NCBI RefSeq assembly: GCF_002900975.1
Contig: NZ_PJON01000001.1
Span: 1,240,001-1,304,000, forward strand
Length of the DNA: 64,000 nucleotides
Source of the DNA: Tabrizicola aquatica
GTDB taxonomy: Bacteria > Pseudomonadota > Alphaproteobacteria > Rhodobacterales > Rhodobacteraceae
Direction of reading: 5' to 3'
Shown here: positions 48,846 through 64,000 of the stretch, piece after piece
Layout of the letters: each line of letters opens with the position of its first letter
Numbering within the stretch: position 1 is the first letter of the stretch
Translations under genes and position numbers: made by a program
Notes under the pieces: generated by a model
What the model was told of the DNA's origin: nothing
Database searches by the model: none
The model's input: the letters and a program-made list of their open reading frames with translations, nothing else

Positions 48846-48871
48846 CGGTCCCTCCCGTTGGTTCTGGGGCA

Positions 48872-48916
48872 CAAAAGTTTTCGAAAACTTTTGGCAAATT
48901 CCTTCGAAGGAATTTG
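48872..48916. repeat. Double-palindrome element, copy 5
   Basis: Arm CAAAAGTTTT with centre CG (48872-48893), one base, then arm CAAATTCCTT with centre CG (48895-48916). It sits exactly between the binding-protein-1 stop and the permease-1 start in the same operon. In other sugar operons a hairpin in this place stabilises the binding-protein message. Confidence 0.85.
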
Positions 48917-48953
48917 GGTCGGGGGGCAGATGGCCCGCCCCCTTTCCATGCGG

Positions 48954-55345: not shown

Positions 55346-55375
55346 TTGCATTTTACATCTTCAAAGCTTTATAGA
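55346..55375 (+). promoter_or_regulatory. Putative promoter of the RND/SQR operon
   Basis: TTGCAT at 55346-55351 and TATAGA at 55370-55375, separated by 18 bases, lie about 30 bases upstream of the adaptor gene start. The AT-rich stretch contrasts with the GC-rich flanks. Confidence 0.5.
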
Positions 55376-55376
55376 T
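55357..55376 (+). promoter_or_regulatory. Operator-like palindrome over the promoter
   Basis: A 20-base palindrome, ATCTTCAAAG|CTTTATAGAT, with eight of ten pairs matching, covers the -10 box and part of the spacer. A repressor binding here would block transcription. The dithiol ArsR regulator at 61129 is the likely binder. Confidence 0.5.
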
Positions 55377-55405
55377 AAAGAGCCAATGAGAAGGACCCGA
55401 CTCGC

Positions 55406-56398
55406 ATGCCCCTCCTGCGCAAGCTGATGCTGACGGCATCCCTCCTTTTCCCGTTTTCGGCCCTGGCCGAACCGCTGACCCTGTCGCCCGTCGCCGTCAC
55501 CGACTGGAAGGCGGTCTACGGCACGGTCGAGGCGCGCGACCGTATCCCGGCCCGCGCCCGGATCGGCGGCACTCTGGTTGCCCTGGCGGTGGCCGAAGGC
55601 GACGTGGTCGAGGCCGGGCAGGAACTGGCCCGAATCGTCGACGACAAGCTGGATTTCCAGCTGGCCGCGCTGTCGGCCCAGCGGGAATCCCTTTCCGCCC
55701 AACTTGCCAATGCCGAGACCGACCTGAAGCGGGGTGAGGAGTTGCTGGCCAATGGCGTGACCACGACCCAGCGGGTCGATGCCCTGCGCACCCAGGTCGA
55801 TGTGCTGAAAGGCCAGATCGCCGCGCTGGAGGCGCAGGCCGATGTGATCTCGCAGCAGGCGCGTGAGGGGGTGGTGCTGGCGCCGGTCGCGGGCCGCGTG
55901 CTGGATGTGCCGGTGACCGAAGGCGCTGTGGCCATGCCCGGCGAAGTGGTCGCGGTGATCGGCGGCGGCGGAACCTACCTGCGCATCGCGGTGCCCGAAC
56001 GCCATGCCACGGCCTTGCAGGAGGGCGACACGATCCGCCTGTCCGAAGGGACAAAGGGGCGTCTGGCCCGCGTATATCCGCTGATCGAGGGCGGCCGCGT
56101 CGTCGCCGATGTCGAGGTCGCTGACCTGCCCGACACCCATGTCGGCGCGCGGCTTCTGGTGCGCCTGCCGGTGGGCGAGCGTCAGGCCCTGCTGGTCCCC
56201 GCCGCGTCCATCGTGACCCGCGCGGGTCTGGATTTCGTCCGCCTGCAGACGCCCGAAGGCGTGGCCCTGCGCAGCATCGTGCCGGGCGAGGCGCATGAGG
56301 TGGACGGCGTGGCGATGGTCGAAGTGATTACGGGTCTGGTCGCGGGCGACGTGGTCGTTCCGGCCGCCGAAGCCGGTGGCGAGGTGGGCCATGACTGA
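55406..56398 (+). CDS. RND efflux periplasmic adaptor (MFP)
   Basis: A 330-residue membrane-fusion protein with a signal peptide (about 1-21, ending SALA). A lipoyl/barrel-sandwich domain lies on both sides of a coiled coil (RESLSAQLANAETDLKRGEELLANG, shown in part here as SLSAQLANAETDL, about 95-150). The C-terminal beta-barrel follows. It links the inner-membrane pump to an outer-membrane channel. AAGGA lies about twelve bases before the ATG. Its stop overlaps the pump start by eight bases (ATGACTGA). No outer-membrane TolC gene is present. Confidence 0.9.
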   Translation: MPLLRKLMLTASLLFPFSALAEPLTLSPVAVTDWKAVYGTVEARDRIPARARIGGTLVALAVAEGDVVEAGQELARIVDDKLDFQLAALSAQRESLSAQLANAETDLKRGEELLANGVTTTQRVDALRTQVDVLKGQIAALEAQADVISQQAREGVVLAPVAGRVLDVPVTEGAVAMPGEVVAVIGGGGTYLRIAVPERHATALQEGDTIRLSEGTKGRLARVYPLIEGGRVVADVEVADLPDTHVGARLLVRLPVGERQALLVPAASIVTRAGLDFVRLQTPEGVALRSIVPGEAHEVDGVAMVEVITGLVAGDVVVPAAEAGGEVGHD

Positions 56399-59300
56399 CC
56401 GCAAGCACCCCTTGGGCATTGCCGGGGGCCTGACCAAGGCCTTCATCAACTCGGCCCTGACGCCGCTCTTCATCCTGGCTGCGCTGGCGGCGGGGATCGT
56501 CGCGCTGGTCAGCCTTCCGCGTGAGGAAGAGCCGCAGATCTCGGTTCCGCTGGTCGACATCCATGTGATGGCGCAGGGGCTCAAGGCCGAGGATGCGGTC
56601 AAGCTGGTGACGGAGCCGCTGGAGGTCATTGTCAAGGGCATCAACGACGTCGAGCATGTCTATTCCCAGACCCGCGACGATGCGGCGATGGTGACGGCGC
56701 GGTTCGAGGTCGGCACCCGGTCCGAGGACGCGATCCTGCGGGTGCATGACAAGGTGCGCGCGAATATCGGCGCGATCCCGGTGGGCATACCCGAGCCGCT
56801 GATCGTCGGCCGTGGCATCGACGATGTGGCGATCCTGACGCTGACGCTTTCGGCCGAGGATCTGACCGCCAACGACCTGACCCGCATCGCGCGTACCCTG
56901 CAGACCGAGGTCGCCAAGACCCAGGATGTCGGCCTGACCTATCTGGTCGGCGACGCGCAGGACGCGATCCGCATCGAGCCGGACCCGGACCGGCTGGCGC
57001 TGTATGGCGTGACGTTGCAGCAACTGGCGGGGAAGGTCGCGCAGGCGAACCGGACACTGAACACGGGCAAGCTGCGCGATCAGGGCCAGATGGTGGACCT
57101 GGTGGCCGGCGAAACGCTGACCGCCCCGGCCGAGGTGGCGAACCTCCTCCTGACCACGCGGGACGGGCGGCCGGTCTATGTCGCGGACGTGGCGACGGTC
57201 GCTTATGTCGCGAACACCAAGGACGCCATCGTCTCGCATCTGGCAAAGACCGACGACGGCCTGACCGGAGGCCCGGCGGTGACGCTGGCGATTGCCAAGC
57301 GCGCCGGGGCGAACGCGGTGGTGGTGGCCGAAGAGGTCCTGCACCGGGTTCACGCGCTGGAAGAAAAGCTGATCCCCGAAGGCGTGACGCTGACGGTCAC
57401 GCGCGACTATGGCGAGACGGCGAATGAAAAGGCGAACGAGCTTCTGTTCCACCTCGGCCTGGCCACGGTGTCGATCATCATTCTCGTGTGGCTGGCGATC
57501 GGCTGGCGCGAGGCCGGGGTTGTCGCCATCGTGATCCCGGTGACGATCCTGCTGACCTTGTTTGCGGCATGGGTGATGGGCTTCACGCTGAACCGGGTGT
57601 CGCTCTTCGCGCTGATCTTCTCCATCGGTATCCTGGTCGACGACGCCATCGTGGTGATCGAGAACATCGACCGTCACTGGGGCCTTGACCGCCGCAAGCC
57701 GCGCCTGCAGGCCGCCATCGAGGCGGTGGCCGAGGTCGGCAACCCGACGATCGTAGCCACCTTGACCGTGGTGGTGGCGCTGTTGCCCATGCTGTTCGTC
57801 AGCGGGTTGATGGGCCCCTACATGTCGCCGATCCCGGCCAATGCCAGCGCGGCGATGATCTTCTCCTTCTTCGTGGCGGTCATCATCACCCCCTGGCTGA
57901 TGGTCAAGATCGCCGGCGGCGCGGACATGAAGGACCATGCACAGGATGACGCCCACGGCGGCCATCACGGCGGCTGGCTGGAGCGGTCCTATGCCGCCGC
58001 CGCAAAGCCGGTGCTGGCCACCAAGGGGCGCAGCCTGGGCTTCCTGCTGGTCGCGGCGGCACTGTCTTTCGGGTCGCTGGCGCTGCTTTACACCCGCGAT
58101 GTCACGGTGAAACTTTTGCCCTTCGACAACAAGTCCGAGCTTTCGGTCGTGATCGACCTGCCCGAAGGCTCTTCGGTCGAGGCGACGGACCGGGTGGCCC
58201 GCGACGTGGCGGATGTGGTGATGGGCCTCTCGGAGGTGACCTCGGTCCAGACCTATGCCGGGACGCCCGCGCCGTTCAACTTCAACGGGCTGGTGCGGCA
58301 TTACTACCTGCGGGCCGAACCGCAACTGGGCGAAGTGGCGATCAACCTAGCGCCGAAGGCCGACCGTGACCGGGCCAGCCATGACATTGCGCTGGACCTG
58401 CGGGAACGGCTGGCGGCGCTGGCGGTGCCCGAGGGCACAAGCCTGAAGGTGGTGGAACCCCCGCCGGGGCCGCCCGTGATCTCGACCCTTCTGGCCGAGG
58501 TCTATGGCCCGGATGCCGAGACGCGGCGTCAGGCGGCGACGATGATCAGGGCTGCGTTTGAATCCGTGCCCTTCATCGTGGACGTGGACGACAGCTTTGG
58601 CACCCAGGCGCGGCGGCTGCGGGCGACGATTTCCTCGGACGATCTGGATTTCTACGCCGTGCAGGAGCAGGACGTGTTCGACACGCTGGCACTGCTGAAT
58701 GGCGGGCAAACCGTCGGCTACTCGCACCGCGGCGAGGGGCGATTGCCGATCCCGCTGGTTGTCGGGCGCGACAAGTCGGACCGGGTGCTGGACGAACGCT
58801 TCCTGACCACGCCGATCCCGGCCAATGCCCTGCCGGGCGCACGCGGGGTGGTGGAGCTGGGCGACGTGATCCGGGTTCAGGAGGAAGCCGCAAGCTTCCC
58901 GATCTTCCGCCGCAACGGCCGCGACGCCGAAATGGTCACCGCCGAACTGGCCGGCGATTTCGAAGCCCCGCTTTACGGGATGCTGGCCGTCGCCGACGCG
59001 ATCGAAAAGATGGACTGGCCCGAAGGGACCAAGCCCGAAATCGCGCTGAACGGCCAGCCCGAGGACGAGGGCAAGGTCACCCTGCTGTGGGACGGCGAAT
59101 GGGAGGTGACCTTCATCACCTTCCGCGACATGGGGGCCGCCTTCGGGATCGCGCTTCTGGGGATCTACATCCTTGTCGTGGCGCAGTTCGGCTCGTTCAA
59201 GCTGCCCTTGGTGATCCTGACGCCGATCCCGCTGACCTTCCTGGGGATCATGTTCGGCCACTGGCTGTTCGCCGCCCCCTTCAGCGCCACCTCGATGATC

Positions 59301-59585
59301 GGCTTCATCGCACTGGCCGGGATCATCGTGCGCAACTCGATCCTGCTGGTGGACTTCATCCGCCATGGGCAGGGGCCGGTCACGGTGGACCTGCTGATCG
59401 AGGCGGGGGCGATCCGGTTCAAGCCGATCATCCTGACCGCCATCGCCGCCATGATCGGCGCGGTGACGATCCTGGCGGACCCGATCTTCCAGGGTCTCGC
59501 GATTTCCCTGCTGTTCGGTCTGCTGAGTTCGACCTTGCTGACCGTCCTTGTCATCCCGGCCATCTACCGCGTGTTCCGCACATGA
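56391..59585 (+). CDS. RND-family efflux pump (AcrB/HAE1-like)
   Basis: An inner-membrane proton-driven transporter of 1064 residues, near the usual RND length. The signature GILVDDAIVVIEN is in the fourth helix region, and repeated large periplasmic loops are present. The ATG at 56391 has a GAGGTG ribosome site; a GTG five codons upstream is in frame but less likely. Compared with drug pumps, this group resembles the AcrB/AcrD/AcrF family broadly; the substrate is unknown. The context (SQR and a persulfide-type ArsR) suggests that it could export sulfur-stressed or thiol-modified compounds, which is inference only. Confidence 0.92.
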   Translation: MTDRKHPLGIAGGLTKAFINSALTPLFILAALAAGIVALVSLPREEEPQISVPLVDIHVMAQGLKAEDAVKLVTEPLEVIVKGINDVEHVYSQTRDDAAMVTARFEVGTRSEDAILRVHDKVRANIGAIPVGIPEPLIVGRGIDDVAILTLTLSAEDLTANDLTRIARTLQTEVAKTQDVGLTYLVGDAQDAIRIEPDPDRLALYGVTLQQLAGKVAQANRTLNTGKLRDQGQMVDLVAGETLTAPAEVANLLLTTRDGRPVYVADVATVAYVANTKDAIVSHLAKTDDGLTGGPAVTLAIAKRAGANAVVVAEEVLHRVHALEEKLIPEGVTLTVTRDYGETANEKANELLFHLGLATVSIIILVWLAIGWREAGVVAIVIPVTILLTLFAAWVMGFTLNRVSLFALIFSIGILVDDAIVVIENIDRHWGLDRRKPRLQAAIEAVAEVGNPTIVATLTVVVALLPMLFVSGLMGPYMSPIPANASAAMIFSFFVAVIITPWLMVKIAGGADMKDHAQDDAHGGHHGGWLERSYAAAAKPVLATKGRSLGFLLVAAALSFGSLALLYTRDVTVKLLPFDNKSELSVVIDLPEGSSVEATDRVARDVADVVMGLSEVTSVQTYAGTPAPFNFNGLVRHYYLRAEPQLGEVAINLAPKADRDRASHDIALDLRERLAALAVPEGTSLKVVEPPPGPPVISTLLAEVYGPDAETRRQAATMIRAAFESVPFIVDVDDSFGTQARRLRATISSDDLDFYAVQEQDVFDTLALLNGGQTVGYSHRGEGRLPIPLVVGRDKSDRVLDERFLTTPIPANALPGARGVVELGDVIRVQEEAASFPIFRRNGRDAEMVTAELAGDFEAPLYGMLAVADAIEKMDWPEGTKPEIALNGQPEDEGKVTLLWDGEWEVTFITFRDMGAAFGIALLGIYILVVAQFGSFKLPLVILTPIPLTFLGIMFGHWLFAAPFSATSMIGFIALAGIIVRNSILLVDFIRHGQGPVTVDLLIEAGAIRFKPIILTAIAAMIGAVTILADPIFQGLAISLLFGLLSSTLLTVLVIPAIYRVFRT

Positions 59586-59621
59586 CCGGTACTTCACGCC
59601 TGATCAGAAGAGGAGACTGAA

Positions 59622-60905
59622 ATGGCACATGTCGTTGTTCTGGGGGCCGGACTTGGCGGCGCCATCATGGCTTACGAATTGAAGGACCAGTTGCGGCCCG
59701 AGGACAAGGTCACGGTGGTGACGAAGGACCCGAAGTATCACTTCGTGCCTTCGAACCCCTGGATCGCCGTCGGCTGGCGCGACCGTGAGGACATCACGGT
59801 CGACCTTGCGCCAACCATGGCGAAGAAGGGGATCGAGTTCATCCCGGTGGCCGCCGAAAAGCTGGTGCCGGAGGAGAACCGGATCGCCCTGGTCGACGGC
59901 CAGTCGGTCGCCTATGACTATCTGGTGATCGCGACCGGGCCGGAATTGGCCTTTGACGAGGTGCCGGGCCTGGGGCCTGAGGGGCACACGCAGTCGATCT
60001 GCCACATCGACCATGCCGAGGCCGCGAAGGCGGTATTCGAAAAGCTGGTGGCGAACCCCGGCCCGGTCATCATCGGCGCGGCGCAGGGCGCGAGCTGTTT
60101 CGGCCCGGCCTATGAGTTCCTGTTCATCCTGGAAACCGCGCTCCGCCGGGCCAAGGTGCGCGACCGGGTGCCGATGACCTTTGTCACACCCGAGCCTTAT
60201 GTGGGCCATCTCGGGCTGGACGGCGTCGGCGACACCAAGGGCCTTCTGGAAAGCCAGATGCGCGAGAAGCACATCAAGTGGATGACCAACACCCGGATCA
60301 AGCGGGTCGAGGAAGGCCACATGATCGTCGAGGAAGTGGGCGAGGATGGCGTGGCGAAACCCGAAAAGGACCTGCCCTTTGCGTTTTCCATGATGCTGCC
60401 GGCCTTCCGGGGGATCAAGCCCGTCTCGGGGATCGAGGGGCTGAGCAATCCGCGCGGCTTCACCATCGTCGACAAGCACCAGCAGAACCCGAAATACCCC
60501 AACGTCTTTGCGGTGGGCGTCTGCGTGGCGATCCCGCCGATGGGACCGACGCCCGTGCCCTGCGGCGTGCCAAAGACCGGGTTCATGATCGAAAGCATGG
60601 TCACCGCGACCGCGCACAACATCGGCAACATCGTCCGCGGCAAGGAACCCGACAGCGTCGGCACCTGGAACGCGGTCTGCCTTGCCGACTTCGGCGACGG
60701 GGGCATCGCCTTTGTCGCCCAGCCCCAGATTCCGCCGCGGAACGTCAACTGGTCCTCGTCGGGCAAATGGGTCCACCTGGCCAAGGCGGGGTTCGAGAAA
60801 TACTTCATCCGCAAGCTGCGCAAGGGCCAGTCGGAACCCTTCTACGAAAGCCTCGCACTCAAGGTGCTGGGCATCGACAAACTTAAAGCAACCACGAAAG
60901 GATAA
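59622..60905 (+). CDS. sqr: Sulfide:quinone oxidoreductase, type I
   Basis: A 427-residue FAD protein that oxidises sulfide to sulfane sulfur and passes electrons to the quinone pool at the membrane. The FAD motif is VVLGAGLGGAIMAYEL. Cysteines lie at 127 (QSICHIDH), 159 (AAQGASCFGPAYEF) and 353 (AVCLADFG). These fit the three catalytic cysteines of type I SQR (128, 160 and 356 in Acidithiobacillus). TPVPCGVPKTGFMIE is also typical. A GAGGAG ribosome site is directly upstream. It shares an operon with DUF2892 and the ArsR sensor. Confidence 0.92.
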   Translation: MAHVVVLGAGLGGAIMAYELKDQLRPEDKVTVVTKDPKYHFVPSNPWIAVGWRDREDITVDLAPTMAKKGIEFIPVAAEKLVPEENRIALVDGQSVAYDYLVIATGPELAFDEVPGLGPEGHTQSICHIDHAEAAKAVFEKLVANPGPVIIGAAQGASCFGPAYEFLFILETALRRAKVRDRVPMTFVTPEPYVGHLGLDGVGDTKGLLESQMREKHIKWMTNTRIKRVEEGHMIVEEVGEDGVAKPEKDLPFAFSMMLPAFRGIKPVSGIEGLSNPRGFTIVDKHQQNPKYPNVFAVGVCVAIPPMGPTPVPCGVPKTGFMIESMVTATAHNIGNIVRGKEPDSVGTWNAVCLADFGDGGIAFVAQPQIPPRNVNWSSSGKWVHLAKAGFEKYFIRKLRKGQSEPFYESLALKVLGIDKLKATTKG

Positions 60906-60908
60906 ATC

Positions 60909-61112
60909 ATGTCGCTTGATCGCGCCGTCATGCTGTTTGCCGGGGCCATGGTCCTTCTCAGCGTCGTGCTGACCATGTATGTCTCGCCCCTGTTTGTGTG
61001 GTTCACCGTGTTCATCGGTCTGAACCTGATCCAGTCCTCCTTCACCGGCTTTTGCCCGGCGGCCATGCTGTTCCGGTCGTTGGGGGTGAAGAAGGGCTGC
61101 GCGTTCGAATGA
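60909..61112 (+). CDS. DUF2892 (YgaP-type) membrane protein
   Basis: A 67-residue protein with two membrane helices and the DUF2892 signature SSFTGFCPAAMLFRSLGVKKGC, which carries two cysteines (here shown by TGFCPAAMLF and KKGC). The same domain forms the membrane part of E. coli YgaP, a rhodanese. In this organism the rhodanese part is missing, and the domain stands alone three bases after the SQR stop. It could pass sulfane sulfur from SQR to other proteins; this is inference. Confidence 0.88.
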   Translation: MSLDRAVMLFAGAMVLLSVVLTMYVSPLFVWFTVFIGLNLIQSSFTGFCPAAMLFRSLGVKKGCAFE

Positions 61113-61128
61113 AGCCGTAGGAGCGAAG

Positions 61129-61455
61129 ATGGCAGAGATCCTGGAAGGCTTCGGCGGCACGGCCGAGCAGGCATCGCGTGCGGTGGCGCTTCTGAAATCG
61201 CTTTCGCATGAGGGGCGGTTGCAGATCCTCTGCCTTCTTGTCGATGGCGAGCGCAATGTCTCCCAACTGGCCGAGGCGCTGGGGTCCAGTCCCGTCAGCG
61301 TCTCGCAACAACTGATGCGCCTGCGGGCCGAGGGTATCGTGCAGACCCGCCGCGAAGGGAAAAGCGTGATCTACCACCTGGCCCGAGACGAGGTGGCGAC
61401 CATCGTGACCGCCCTGCGCGACACGTTCTGCAAGAAGCCGCACGCGGCCCCGTGA
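61129..61455 (+). CDS. ArsR-family sulfur-sensing repressor (SqrR/BigR/YgaV-like)
   Basis: A 108-residue winged-helix repressor. The helix LKSLSHEGRLQILCLL carries Cys35, and the C-terminal end TALRDTFCKKPH carries Cys101. Known persulfide sensors of the SqrR/BigR/YgaV group use a pair at the same spacing (Cys41 and Cys107 in SqrR), forming a tetrasulfide link that releases DNA. TAGGAGCG precedes the ATG. Its place after SQR and DUF2892 matches the expected regulator of the cluster, and it is likely to bind the palindrome at 55357. Confidence 0.9.
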   Translation: MAEILEGFGGTAEQASRAVALLKSLSHEGRLQILCLLVDGERNVSQLAEALGSSPVSVSQQLMRLRAEGIVQTRREGKSVIYHLARDEVATIVTALRDTFCKKPHAAP

Positions 61456-61619
61456 CAGGTGCGGCCGGGGTCGCCACCGAGCCCGGCCGCACCCGCAGAC
61501 CTGAAGCTGGTGCCGGGCCTGTCGCGGGTGCCGGGCACGGGTTGACCGACATCAAGGCCGACTGCCGCCGCCCGTGCGACGGTCGGCCGACCTTCGTCCT
61601 GCATCCAGAAAGTCCCGAC

Positions 61620-62834
61620 ATGCCCCAGCGCAGCGATACCGACCTCCCGCTGGAGATCCACGCGCAAGCGGAGGCCGGGACCACCGCCCCGCCCCGGGCC
61701 CGCTTTGCGCGGCGCTACCTGCTGGTGCTGCTGGTCCCGGCCCTCATGTTCGCGGGCGCGGTGATCGGCATGTATTTCCAGCCGCCGCTTCTGCGGGCCT
61801 TCTACGGCCTGACCGGATTGCAGCCGGGCGGCGGGTCGGACACCCCCATCGCCCTGCCGCCGAATGTCGAACTGCCGCCGCGCATGGCCGAAACCATGTT
61901 GCCCAGCGACGTGGTCGGCTTGGCGCGCCTGATGCCCGAGGGCGATGTCTCGGTCGTCGCTGCCCCCTATGGCGCGGGCGATGCGCGGATCGCGGAAATC
62001 CTGGTCGCGGTCGGCCAGACCGTGGAAAAGGGTGCGGAACTGGCGCGGCTGGACAATGCCCTGGCGCTGGAAGGCGCGGTCCTGACTGCCGAGGCCAATC
62101 TTGCGGTCCGCGAGGCCACGCTGATGCAGACCCGCGCGGCCGTGCAGGCCAGTCGGGACGAGGCGCAGGCGACGCTGGACCAGGCCACCGCAACCGCCGC
62201 CGAGGCCGCCTCGGGCCAGCAGCGCACGGAAGAGTTGTTCCTGCGCGGCGTTGCCACGCAAGAGACACTGGACGCCGCCCGCACCGCAGCCCAAAGCGCC
62301 CGCCTGGCGGTGACGCGCGCCGAGGCGACGCTCGCGCGCTTTGCCGGGGTCGCGCTGGACGAGCAGCCCGACATCGTCGTCGCCACCCGCAACGTCGAGG
62401 CCAGTCGCGCCGATCTGGCCCGCGCGCGGCTGGACCTGCAACGCGCAGTCGTCGTCGCCCCGATCAGCGGCGCGATCCTGGACATCAACGCCACCCCCGG
62501 CCAGCGCCCGCCCGCCGACGGGATCATGCAGATGGGCGCCACCGGCCGCATGATGGCCGAGGTCGAAATCTGGCAGGACCGCATCGCCCGGGTTGCCGTC
62601 GGCCAGCCGGTCGAACTGGTCTCCTCGGCCTTGGGCCGAACGTTGCAGGGGCAGGTCGCGGCCATCGGCCTGACCGTGGGCCGCCAGGGCCTGATCTCGG
62701 ACGATGCGGCGGAAAACAAGGATGCCCGCGTCATCCGCGTTCTGGTGGCGCTGGACCCCGACTCCTCGGCCATTGCGGCGCGGTTCACCAATCTTGAGGC
62801 GATTGCCCGGATCGACACGCAGGCCGCGCCGTGA
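61620..62834 (+). CDS. HlyD-type adaptor of an ABC exporter (DevB-like)
   Basis: A 404-residue inner-membrane-anchored adaptor. One membrane helix (RRYLLVLLVPALMFAGAVIG) is near residue 30, and barrel-sandwich halves flank a long coiled coil (about 135-270). The frame is open from a GTG at 61452 that overlaps the ArsR stop, but residues coded before the ATG at 61620 look unstructured, so the ATG is chosen with moderate confidence. The next gene, with a GTG start overlapping its stop by four bases, is a DevC-type permease. Confidence 0.82.
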   Translation: MPQRSDTDLPLEIHAQAEAGTTAPPRARFARRYLLVLLVPALMFAGAVIGMYFQPPLLRAFYGLTGLQPGGGSDTPIALPPNVELPPRMAETMLPSDVVGLARLMPEGDVSVVAAPYGAGDARIAEILVAVGQTVEKGAELARLDNALALEGAVLTAEANLAVREATLMQTRAAVQASRDEAQATLDQATATAAEAASGQQRTEELFLRGVATQETLDAARTAAQSARLAVTRAEATLARFAGVALDEQPDIVVATRNVEASRADLARARLDLQRAVVVAPISGAILDINATPGQRPPADGIMQMGATGRMMAEVEIWQDRIARVAVGQPVELVSSALGRTLQGQVAAIGLTVGRQGLISDDAAENKDARVIRVLVALDPDSSAIAARFTNLEAIARIDTQAAP

Positions 62835-64000
62835 CGCGGCTTTTGCAACGCCTGCTGGGCCGCCTGCCAATCGGCTGGCTGCAACTGACGCACAACCCGA
62901 TGCGCTTTGCCGCGGCCCTGGTCGGGGTGGCCTTCGCCAACGTGCTGGTTTTCGTCCAGCTGGGGATCATGAATTCGATGGGGACGGCCGTCCTGCAACC
63001 CTACAGCTTCTTTTCCGCCGATGTGATGATCTCGGCTTCGGATGCCAACGCGCTGACCGATGGCGGCAATGTCGCGCGGCAGTGGCTGTTGCAGGCGATG
63101 GCCGACCCGGATGTGGTCGACGGGATCGGGCTGTTCGTCGGCAACGTGCCCCTGGACCGCGCCAGCACGGACATCGCCCTGACCACCTTCGGCATTGATC
63201 CGACCAAGCCCGATTTCCTGTCGCCCCTTATCGCGGACGACATCGCGCTGCTTCAGGTGCAGGACTCGGCCCTGATCGACCGCCTGGCCCGCGGCCTGCC
63301 GCGCGACGAGGCCGCCGCGATCCGCCCGCAATCGCCCCTGGCCTTCGAGACGCAGGGCCGCACCGTGACGGCCTATTCCACCTTTGCCGGCGGAGGCGGG
63401 TTCGGCGGCGACGGCTACATGATCATGTCGGACCAGACCTTCCTGTCGCTGTTTCCCGCCCGCCGTTCGGCCGCGCCCGACCATATCCTGTTGCGCCTGC
63501 GCCCCTCGGCGGATGTCGACGCCACCGTCCAGCGCCTGCGCAAGCTGATCTCGGACCCCGAATTGCGCATCCGCAGCTATGCCGACGCCGGGCAGGAGGA
63601 ACTGACTTACCAGCAGACCAAGCGCCCGACCGGGATCATCTTCGGCTTCGGCGTGCTGATTGGGGTGCTGGTCGGGCTGGTGATCGTCTACCAGGTGCTG
63701 TCCACCGATGTGGCCGACCACCTGCGCGAATATGCGACCTTCAAGGCGATGGGCTATGACCAGCGTTTCTTCATGGGCATCGTCCTGGAAGAGGCGCTGA
63801 TCCTGGGCATCCTGGGGTTCGTGCCGGGGGTGACGGTCGGCGGCACGATCCTGACGGTGATGGGCAAGGTCACCACCCTGCCGCTGGCGGTGACCTGGTC
63901 GATGGCGGCGACCGTCTTTGTCGGGACCGTGGTCTTTTCGGCCCTGTCCGGCGCGATTGCCACCCGCCGCCTTGCCGCCGCCGATCCGGCCGACCTGTTC
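62831..64000 (+). CDS. DevC-like ABC exporter permease, 3' end at window edge
   Basis: The frame starts at a GTG whose bases overlap the adaptor stop (GTGA) and remains open to the window end, 390 codons. It is a DevC/FtsX/MacB-type permease. An N-terminal membrane segment (AAALVGVAFANVLVFVQLG) is followed by a large periplasmic domain, then three helices near the C-terminus. The last residues, TRRLAAADPADLF, match the usual DevC end, so very few codons are missing. A DevA ATPase probably lies just beyond the window. Confidence 0.85.
   Translation, partial: MTRLLQRLLGRLPIGWLQLTHNPMRFAAALVGVAFANVLVFVQLGIMNSMGTAVLQPYSFFSADVMISASDANALTDGGNVARQWLLQAMADPDVVDGIGLFVGNVPLDRASTDIALTTFGIDPTKPDFLSPLIADDIALLQVQDSALIDRLARGLPRDEAAAIRPQSPLAFETQGRTVTAYSTFAGGGGFGGDGYMIMSDQTFLSLFPARRSAAPDHILLRLRPSADVDATVQRLRKLISDPELRIRSYADAGQEELTYQQTKRPTGIIFGFGVLIGVLVGLVIVYQVLSTDVADHLREYATFKAMGYDQRFFMGIVLEEALILGILGFVPGVTVGGTILTVMGKVTTLPLAVTWSMAATVFVGTVVFSALSGAIATRRLAAADPADLF

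Follow-up and report, generated by a model that had tools for sequence, protein, structure and literature searches.

An RND efflux pump clade linked to sulfide oxidation and predicted persulfide sensing in Tabrizicola aquatica and other Alphaproteobacteria

The five-gene run and its dithiol repressor

We analysed a 64,000-nt stretch of the Tabrizicola aquatica genome (Rhodobacteraceae, 3.87 Mb; G000:C1:1240001-1304000), called the window below, which carries genes for an RND efflux pump next to genes for sulfide oxidation and for a putative persulfide sensor. Sulfide:quinone oxidoreductases (SQRs) oxidise sulfide, and RND systems are proton-driven tripartite efflux machines. Five genes run from 55406 to 61455, all on the + strand, and encode an RND adaptor, an RND permease, an SQR, a DUF2892 protein and an ArsR regulator. 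The gaps between them are -23 (the adaptor and pump genes overlap), 36, 3 and 16 nt. The genes and the candidate control sites in front of them are the following.

55346..55375, + strand: candidate sigma-70-like promoter TTGCAT-N18-TATAGA, read by eye; similar TTG...TATA boxes precede the adaptor gene in relatives
55356..55377, strandless: candidate ArsR operator, imperfect 22-bp palindrome CATCTTCAAAGCTTTATAGATA, from a palindromic motif common to 14 related promoters
55406..56398, + strand: RND periplasmic adaptor (membrane fusion protein), 330 aa (TIGR01730, 110 bits, cut-off 94.9)
56376..59585, + strand: RND permease, 1069 aa, no cysteines (PF00873, ACR_tran, 466 bits; alignment of 164 pumps)
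59622..60905, + strand: predicted type I SQR, 427 aa, Cys127/159/353 (A. ferrooxidans SQR structures, E=1e-151)
60909..61112, + strand: DUF2892/YgaP-like transmembrane protein, 67 aa, FTGFCP motif (PF11127, 51.2 bits, cut-off 25.3)
61129..61455, + strand: predicted SqrR/BigR-type dithiol ArsR repressor, Cys35 and Cys101 (best PDB match SqrR, 5.7e-22, next BigR)

The original prediction, made from the DNA letters alone, had named these genes on this strand, and the positions it gave for the three SQR and two ArsR cysteines proved exact. Whole-length similarity to type I structures and the three catalytic cysteines assign the SQR to type I, and the ACR_tran domain with its paired relay aspartates places the permease in the RND superfamily. 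The 67-aa DUF2892 protein consists of the transmembrane domain only (the YgaP-like domain is present and the rhodanese domain absent, according to Pfam), and its FTGFCP motif is kept among pump-linked DUF2892 copies. A pair of OEP domains occurs in one gene of the genome, away from the cluster; it is the only TolC-type outer-membrane gene that was found.

Persulfide sensing through a dithiol pair is established for SqrR, BigR and YgaV. Cys35 and Cys101 of the window ArsR align with both cysteines of Rhodobacter capsulatus SqrR (Cys41/Cys107) and with those of Xylella fastidiosa BigR, and the protein is best assigned to the same kind of dithiol repressor. The corresponding C-X65-C pair is present in 57 of the 61 pump-linked ArsR proteins. 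The T. aquatica genome has nine HTH_5 places, and among the eight examined by sequence only the window ArsR has the pair. Its identity to SqrR is only 47%, and at 81.3 bits it stays under the cut-off of 155 of the BigR equivalog model NF040642, so that it is not a BigR equivalog. Two ArsR paralogues close to SqrR/SoxR (G000:C6:533467 and G000:C1:938587; L005 and L006) keep the first cysteine and lack the second. One of them maps about 4 kb away from soxB. It is unusual for a SoxR-like regulator to lack the dithiol pair. The sqrR gene of P. putida (PMC10128140) was considered as a further family member and rejected, as it encodes a sigma-54 regulator.

Linkage of the pump clade to sulfur genes

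The pump was used as query regardless of its neighbours. Its closest relatives occur in Tabrizicola and Rhodobacter-like genomes, and DUF2892, ArsR or SQR genes were nearby in 41 of 80 genome loci. The exact order adaptor-RND-SQR-DUF2892-ArsR was found in 18 of 125 loci, a count that includes the window's own locus and in which a few loci are one genome reached twice; the roughly 17 other loci with this order belong to Rhodobacteraceae. Other loci showed SQR-DUF2892-adaptor-RND, adaptor-RND-DUF2892-ArsR, ArsR/DUF2892-adaptor-RND and more. The recurrence of the core order together with these rearranged orders argues for selection on the linkage. The search for the RND-SQR-DUF2892-ArsR order in other genomes, which had been proposed as a check, thus shows that it is not confined to T. 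aquatica.

Outside the family, a core sulfur neighbour accompanied 20 of 25 class-wide alphaproteobacterial pump loci, as against 0 of 20 for other RND pumps of these genomes (Fisher p=1.7e-8; the loci are kin, so the p-values given here overstate independence). All seven further alphaproteobacterial loci were linked to sulfur genes, as were 7 of 22 loci from other Pseudomonadota (36-45% identity). The pump also has sulfur neighbours on plasmids and in other bacterial orders. These are DUF2892, ArsR and SQR genes in Rhizobium rhizogenes, Shinella and Azospirillum. Nitratireductor and R. leguminosarum have DUF2892 and ArsR beside it, whereas Agrobacterium and Paracoccus denitrificans have DUF2892 together with a type II SQR; the P. 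denitrificans locus adds a gene for an MBL-fold (persulfide-dioxygenase-like) protein, YeeE, a sulfurtransferase and an ArsR. Relatives in Thioclava and Defluviimonas have the pump adjoining a SoxR-type ArsR, SoxT and further sox genes, and in R. aestuarii a protein with 93% identity to SqrR is encoded about 1.5 kb away from the pump. It could be argued that these are independent genes that merely point the same way, and the pump does stand alone in many marine Rhodobacterales. Given the difference between linked and control pumps, and an operator that is kept even where the pump is alone (see below), we consider such a chance neighbourhood hardly credible.

Recurrent companions of the pump are a rhodanese, a carboxymuconolactone-decarboxylase-family protein and a persulfide dioxygenase, all of which fit sulfur handling. 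The carboxymuconolactone-decarboxylase-family protein stands by the pump module in several alphaproteobacterial orders (L204:4062-4415, L208, L221, L226, L304, L305, L307, L309). DUF5368 adjoins a type II SQR in four loci (L330, L333, L202, L209), two of them near the pump and two near DevBCA exporter genes.

In a tree built with FastTree, whose deep branches are rough, the pump of the window falls into a well-supported clade apart from all control pumps, and 56 of the 69 alphaproteobacterial members have sulfur neighbours. The alignment of 164 pumps shows that the window pump keeps the proton-relay residues Asp422 and Asp423, as do all 122 aligned alphaproteobacterial clade members, and has Arg986 at the position of AcrB Lys940. 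This arginine is found in 143 of 143 aligned clade members, compared with a lysine in 18 of 20 control pumps. Cysteine is missing altogether from 93 of 123 alphaproteobacterial clade members; sulfide-linked pumps contain 0.28 cysteines on average and control pumps 1.85. This near absence of cysteine is perhaps an adaptation to persulfides.

The window pump stayed under the cut-off of every curated subfamily compared, with 420 of 1250 bits for RND_permease_1, 327 of 1250 for RND_permease_2, 263 of 940 for the AcrB type and 226 of 701 for CusA/CzcA. These scores bear on two other views of its cargo. The pump might be a general multidrug or envelope-stress pump for which sulfide is only the alarm, its cargo being unrelated to sulfur. 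RND pumps are often polyspecific, the proton-relay aspartates are kept, and E. coli YgaV affects antibiotic tolerance (PMC9774250). However, the pump scores far under the multidrug subfamilies, and its linkage to sulfur genes is old and specific to its clade. We thus hold this view possible and rather unlikely. Export of metals, or of metal-sulfide complexes formed when sulfide meets cations, has been proposed for sulfide-induced RND pumps by authors working on Azospira (PMC5358917). It appears improbable here, as the pump lacks cysteine and falls well short of the heavy-metal (CusA/CzcA) cut-off, and the ArsR is closer to sulfane-sulfur sensors than to metal sensors.

Candidate operator and promoter, and the DevBCA exporter

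No 40-mer of the window has a lower GC content (27.5%) than the one starting at 55350, just ahead of the adaptor gene. The candidate promoter falls on this spot; a mechanical sigma-70 promoter scan did not call it at 55346..55375. The palindromic motif of the 14 related promoters scores 320, as against 114-126 in shuffles. Action of the ArsR on the palindrome at 55356-55377 is predicted.

The deduced SqrR site is ATTC-N8-GAAT (PMC9774250). When the window was scanned with this plain consensus, the only perfect match (48898) lay in an AT-rich hairpin and not at the adaptor promoter, so that control of the SqrR type at first seemed disfavoured. Relatives then showed that the window's own group bears a variant palindrome, CAnCTATAAAGCTTTATAGnTG, and that a sister group has the classical form at the same place; the published consensus is perfect at the adaptor promoter of many sister loci. 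The hairpin itself, an AT-rich palindrome at 48870-48920 (AAATTCCTTCGAAGGAATTT), is downstream of the stop codon of a substrate-binding protein gene and resembles a terminator hairpin.

We examined 43 Rhodobacterales pump loci without a linked sulfur gene, taking 1054 further upstream regions from these loci as controls. A perfect ATTC-N8-GAAT was present upstream of the adaptor gene in 24 of the 43, compared with 10 of the 1054 controls (p=8e-30). With up to one mismatch the counts were 38 of 43 and 44 of 1054. The SqrR sites in pump loci are mostly 25-90 bp before the adaptor start, and scrambled control patterns gave no excess. These sites suggest that an SqrR/SoxR-type protein controls the lone pumps in trans. 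Taken together, the linkage of the clade to sulfur genes and the SqrR sites before lone pumps suggest that the pump most likely belongs to a persulfide-sensing regulon.

Downstream of the ArsR gene follow two exporter genes that the original prediction had counted as part of the unit.

61620..62834, + strand: DevB-family membrane fusion protein of an ABC exporter (TIGR02971, 167.5 bits, cut-off 129; start set by orthologues)
62831..64000, + strand: DevC-like ABC permease, stop codon just beyond the window end, DevA next (TIGR01185, 265.1 bits, under cut-off 290.35)

DevB clears its family cut-off and DevC narrowly misses that of its equivalog model; a devA gene outside the window (L009:11014-11709) completes the exporter. 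GTG 61452 was rejected as the DevB start. The N-termini of orthologues place it at ATG 61620, the most likely start, which leaves a gap of 164 nt after the ArsR gene. The short spacing claimed for the whole cluster therefore holds from adaptor to ArsR and not beyond. The 164-nt gap has 74% GC, and neither a promoter nor a terminator was called in it. With the only promoter-like island lying before the adaptor gene, a single promoter may serve the entire run, perhaps including DevBCA, which probably shares a transcript with the pump operon.

Membership of DevB and DevC in the unit was not borne out by other genomes. No other pump locus examined has DevBCA next to the pump, of 124 family genomes 9 have DevC, and a window-type pump is missing from every other DevC neighbourhood examined. 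DevBCA is best regarded as a lineage-specific addition that follows the pump in the window genome only. These absences also speak against DevBCA as a genuine second output of the sulfide switch that exports a further sulfide-related compound. The shared strand and the gap without an AT-rich promoter or called terminator would agree with such an output, and in two other genomes homologous DevBCA genes have a type II SQR-DUF5368 pair nearby, which is suggestive only; on balance it seems rather unlikely. The ABC genes beside the SQR-RND cluster of Shinella were rejected as DevBCA kin (their permease is 26% identical to DevC, over partial length).

Immediately to the right of the window, a convergent run on the - strand (L009:11717-16520) encodes an NrsF-type anti-sigma factor, an ECF sigma factor, a thioredoxin, a DsbD-like membrane protein, DoxX, DUF2063, an MbnB/TglH-family enzyme and DUF2282 (Pfam). 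It resembles a bufferin-type (copper-linked) operon with its sigma factor.

Proposed role and known systems

We conclude that the cluster is probably an operon for sulfide stress that is switched by persulfide. In the resting state, the dithiol ArsR would bind the palindrome that overlaps the sole promoter-like island, in front of the adaptor gene. Entering sulfide or polysulfide would, by analogy with SqrR, BigR and YgaV, lead to persulfidation that joins Cys35 and Cys101, and the repressor would leave. As is typical of its family, the SQR would turn sulfide into sulfane sulfur and pass electrons to quinone, and the DUF2892 protein probably aids sulfur handling at the membrane. The proton-driven pump, with a TolC-type protein, may then clear the periplasm or membrane of a compound that accumulates during sulfide oxidation. 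As cargo, polysulfide/zero-valent sulfur or a small molecule modified by sulfide would be most likely, the former being of greatest interest. A bolder and decidedly tentative extension is that the whole clade is a dedicated exporter that moves sulfide-oxidation products (polysulfide, zero-valent sulfur, adducts) across the outer membrane and is under the control of sulfane-sulfur sensors throughout Alphaproteobacteria and beyond. It would be an RND pump with sulfur cargo and one route of extracellular sulfur deposition.

The closest described counterpart is the operon Dsui_3440-3443 of Azospira suillum PS, which comprises an SQR, an RND pump, an adaptor and a protein of unknown role, is highly expressed in H2S oxidation and is a fitness hit in Bar-seq (PMC5358917). 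Like the window, it has adaptor, RND pump and SQR in one operon. Unlike the window, its gene order differs, no regulator or operator has been described, and DUF2892 is elsewhere, as a separate gene that is up about 10-fold (PMC5358917).

Several observations weigh against the persulfide-switched operon. The window's own operator copy has three mismatches to the published SqrR consensus. In the family sample, the pump was present in 102 of 395 genomes and SQR in 61, with the two adjacent in only 9 and SQR often elsewhere, and a relative of the same genus has pump, DUF2892 and ArsR without SQR. Deletion of the operon of Azospira, whose pump is only a possible member of the window pump clade, left the sulfide oxidation rate unchanged (PMC5358917). 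Together with the fitness effect, the last result agrees with a function in tolerance and not in oxidation as such.

The core idea of the original prediction, that sulfide or polysulfide switches on export together with sulfide oxidation, is well supported, and over a wider range than had been thought. The support is for sulfane-sulfur control of an RND pump with SQR, based on the conserved linkage absent in control pumps, the SqrR-type operator at the pump promoter in many relatives and the H2S-induced Azospira operon; the DevB/DevC part is not supported. The pump looks like a dedicated, little-studied arm of the bacterial response to sulfide. The analysis ties a widespread unnamed RND clade to persulfide sensing and supplies signature residues and an operator that can be tested. 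Should the pump carry a sulfur product, this would shed light on the way bacteria dispose of sulfane sulfur and on how sulfur comes to be left extracellularly. If the cargo consists of drugs, it would be a route for sulfide to alter antibiotic tolerance.

The arrangement had also been thought undescribed as a unit, which is true in part. RND pumps have been mentioned with SQR (PMC5358917) and, in one sentence of a 2025 survey of sulfane-sulfur ArsR proteins, near dithiol ArsR genes (PMC12423496); the main text of that survey is without the pump clade, the operator or control pumps. Our literature search found no account of the pump clade, the class-wide linkage or the operator, with subscription papers mostly outside its reach, so that it is no proof of novelty.

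The SqrR regulon of R. capsulatus, whose operator is ATTC-N8-GAAT, resembles the window in its dithiol ArsR repressor, which controls sqr and is predicted to do so in the window. It differs in that no RND pump was found in the searchable regulon papers, and the window regulator is a distant relative with a different candidate operator. The BigR operon (Xylella, Agrobacterium) and YgaVP of E. coli share a BigR/YgaV-type regulator with the window, and YgaP shares the DUF2892 membrane domain; their output, however, is the Blh dioxygenase or a rhodanese, in a unit without RND pump or SQR. PexA of R. capsulatus is like the proposed pump in that it has been suggested to export polysulfide (PMC6424863), but it is an ABC transporter of the ABCB7 type and unrelated to RND pumps (PMC6424863).

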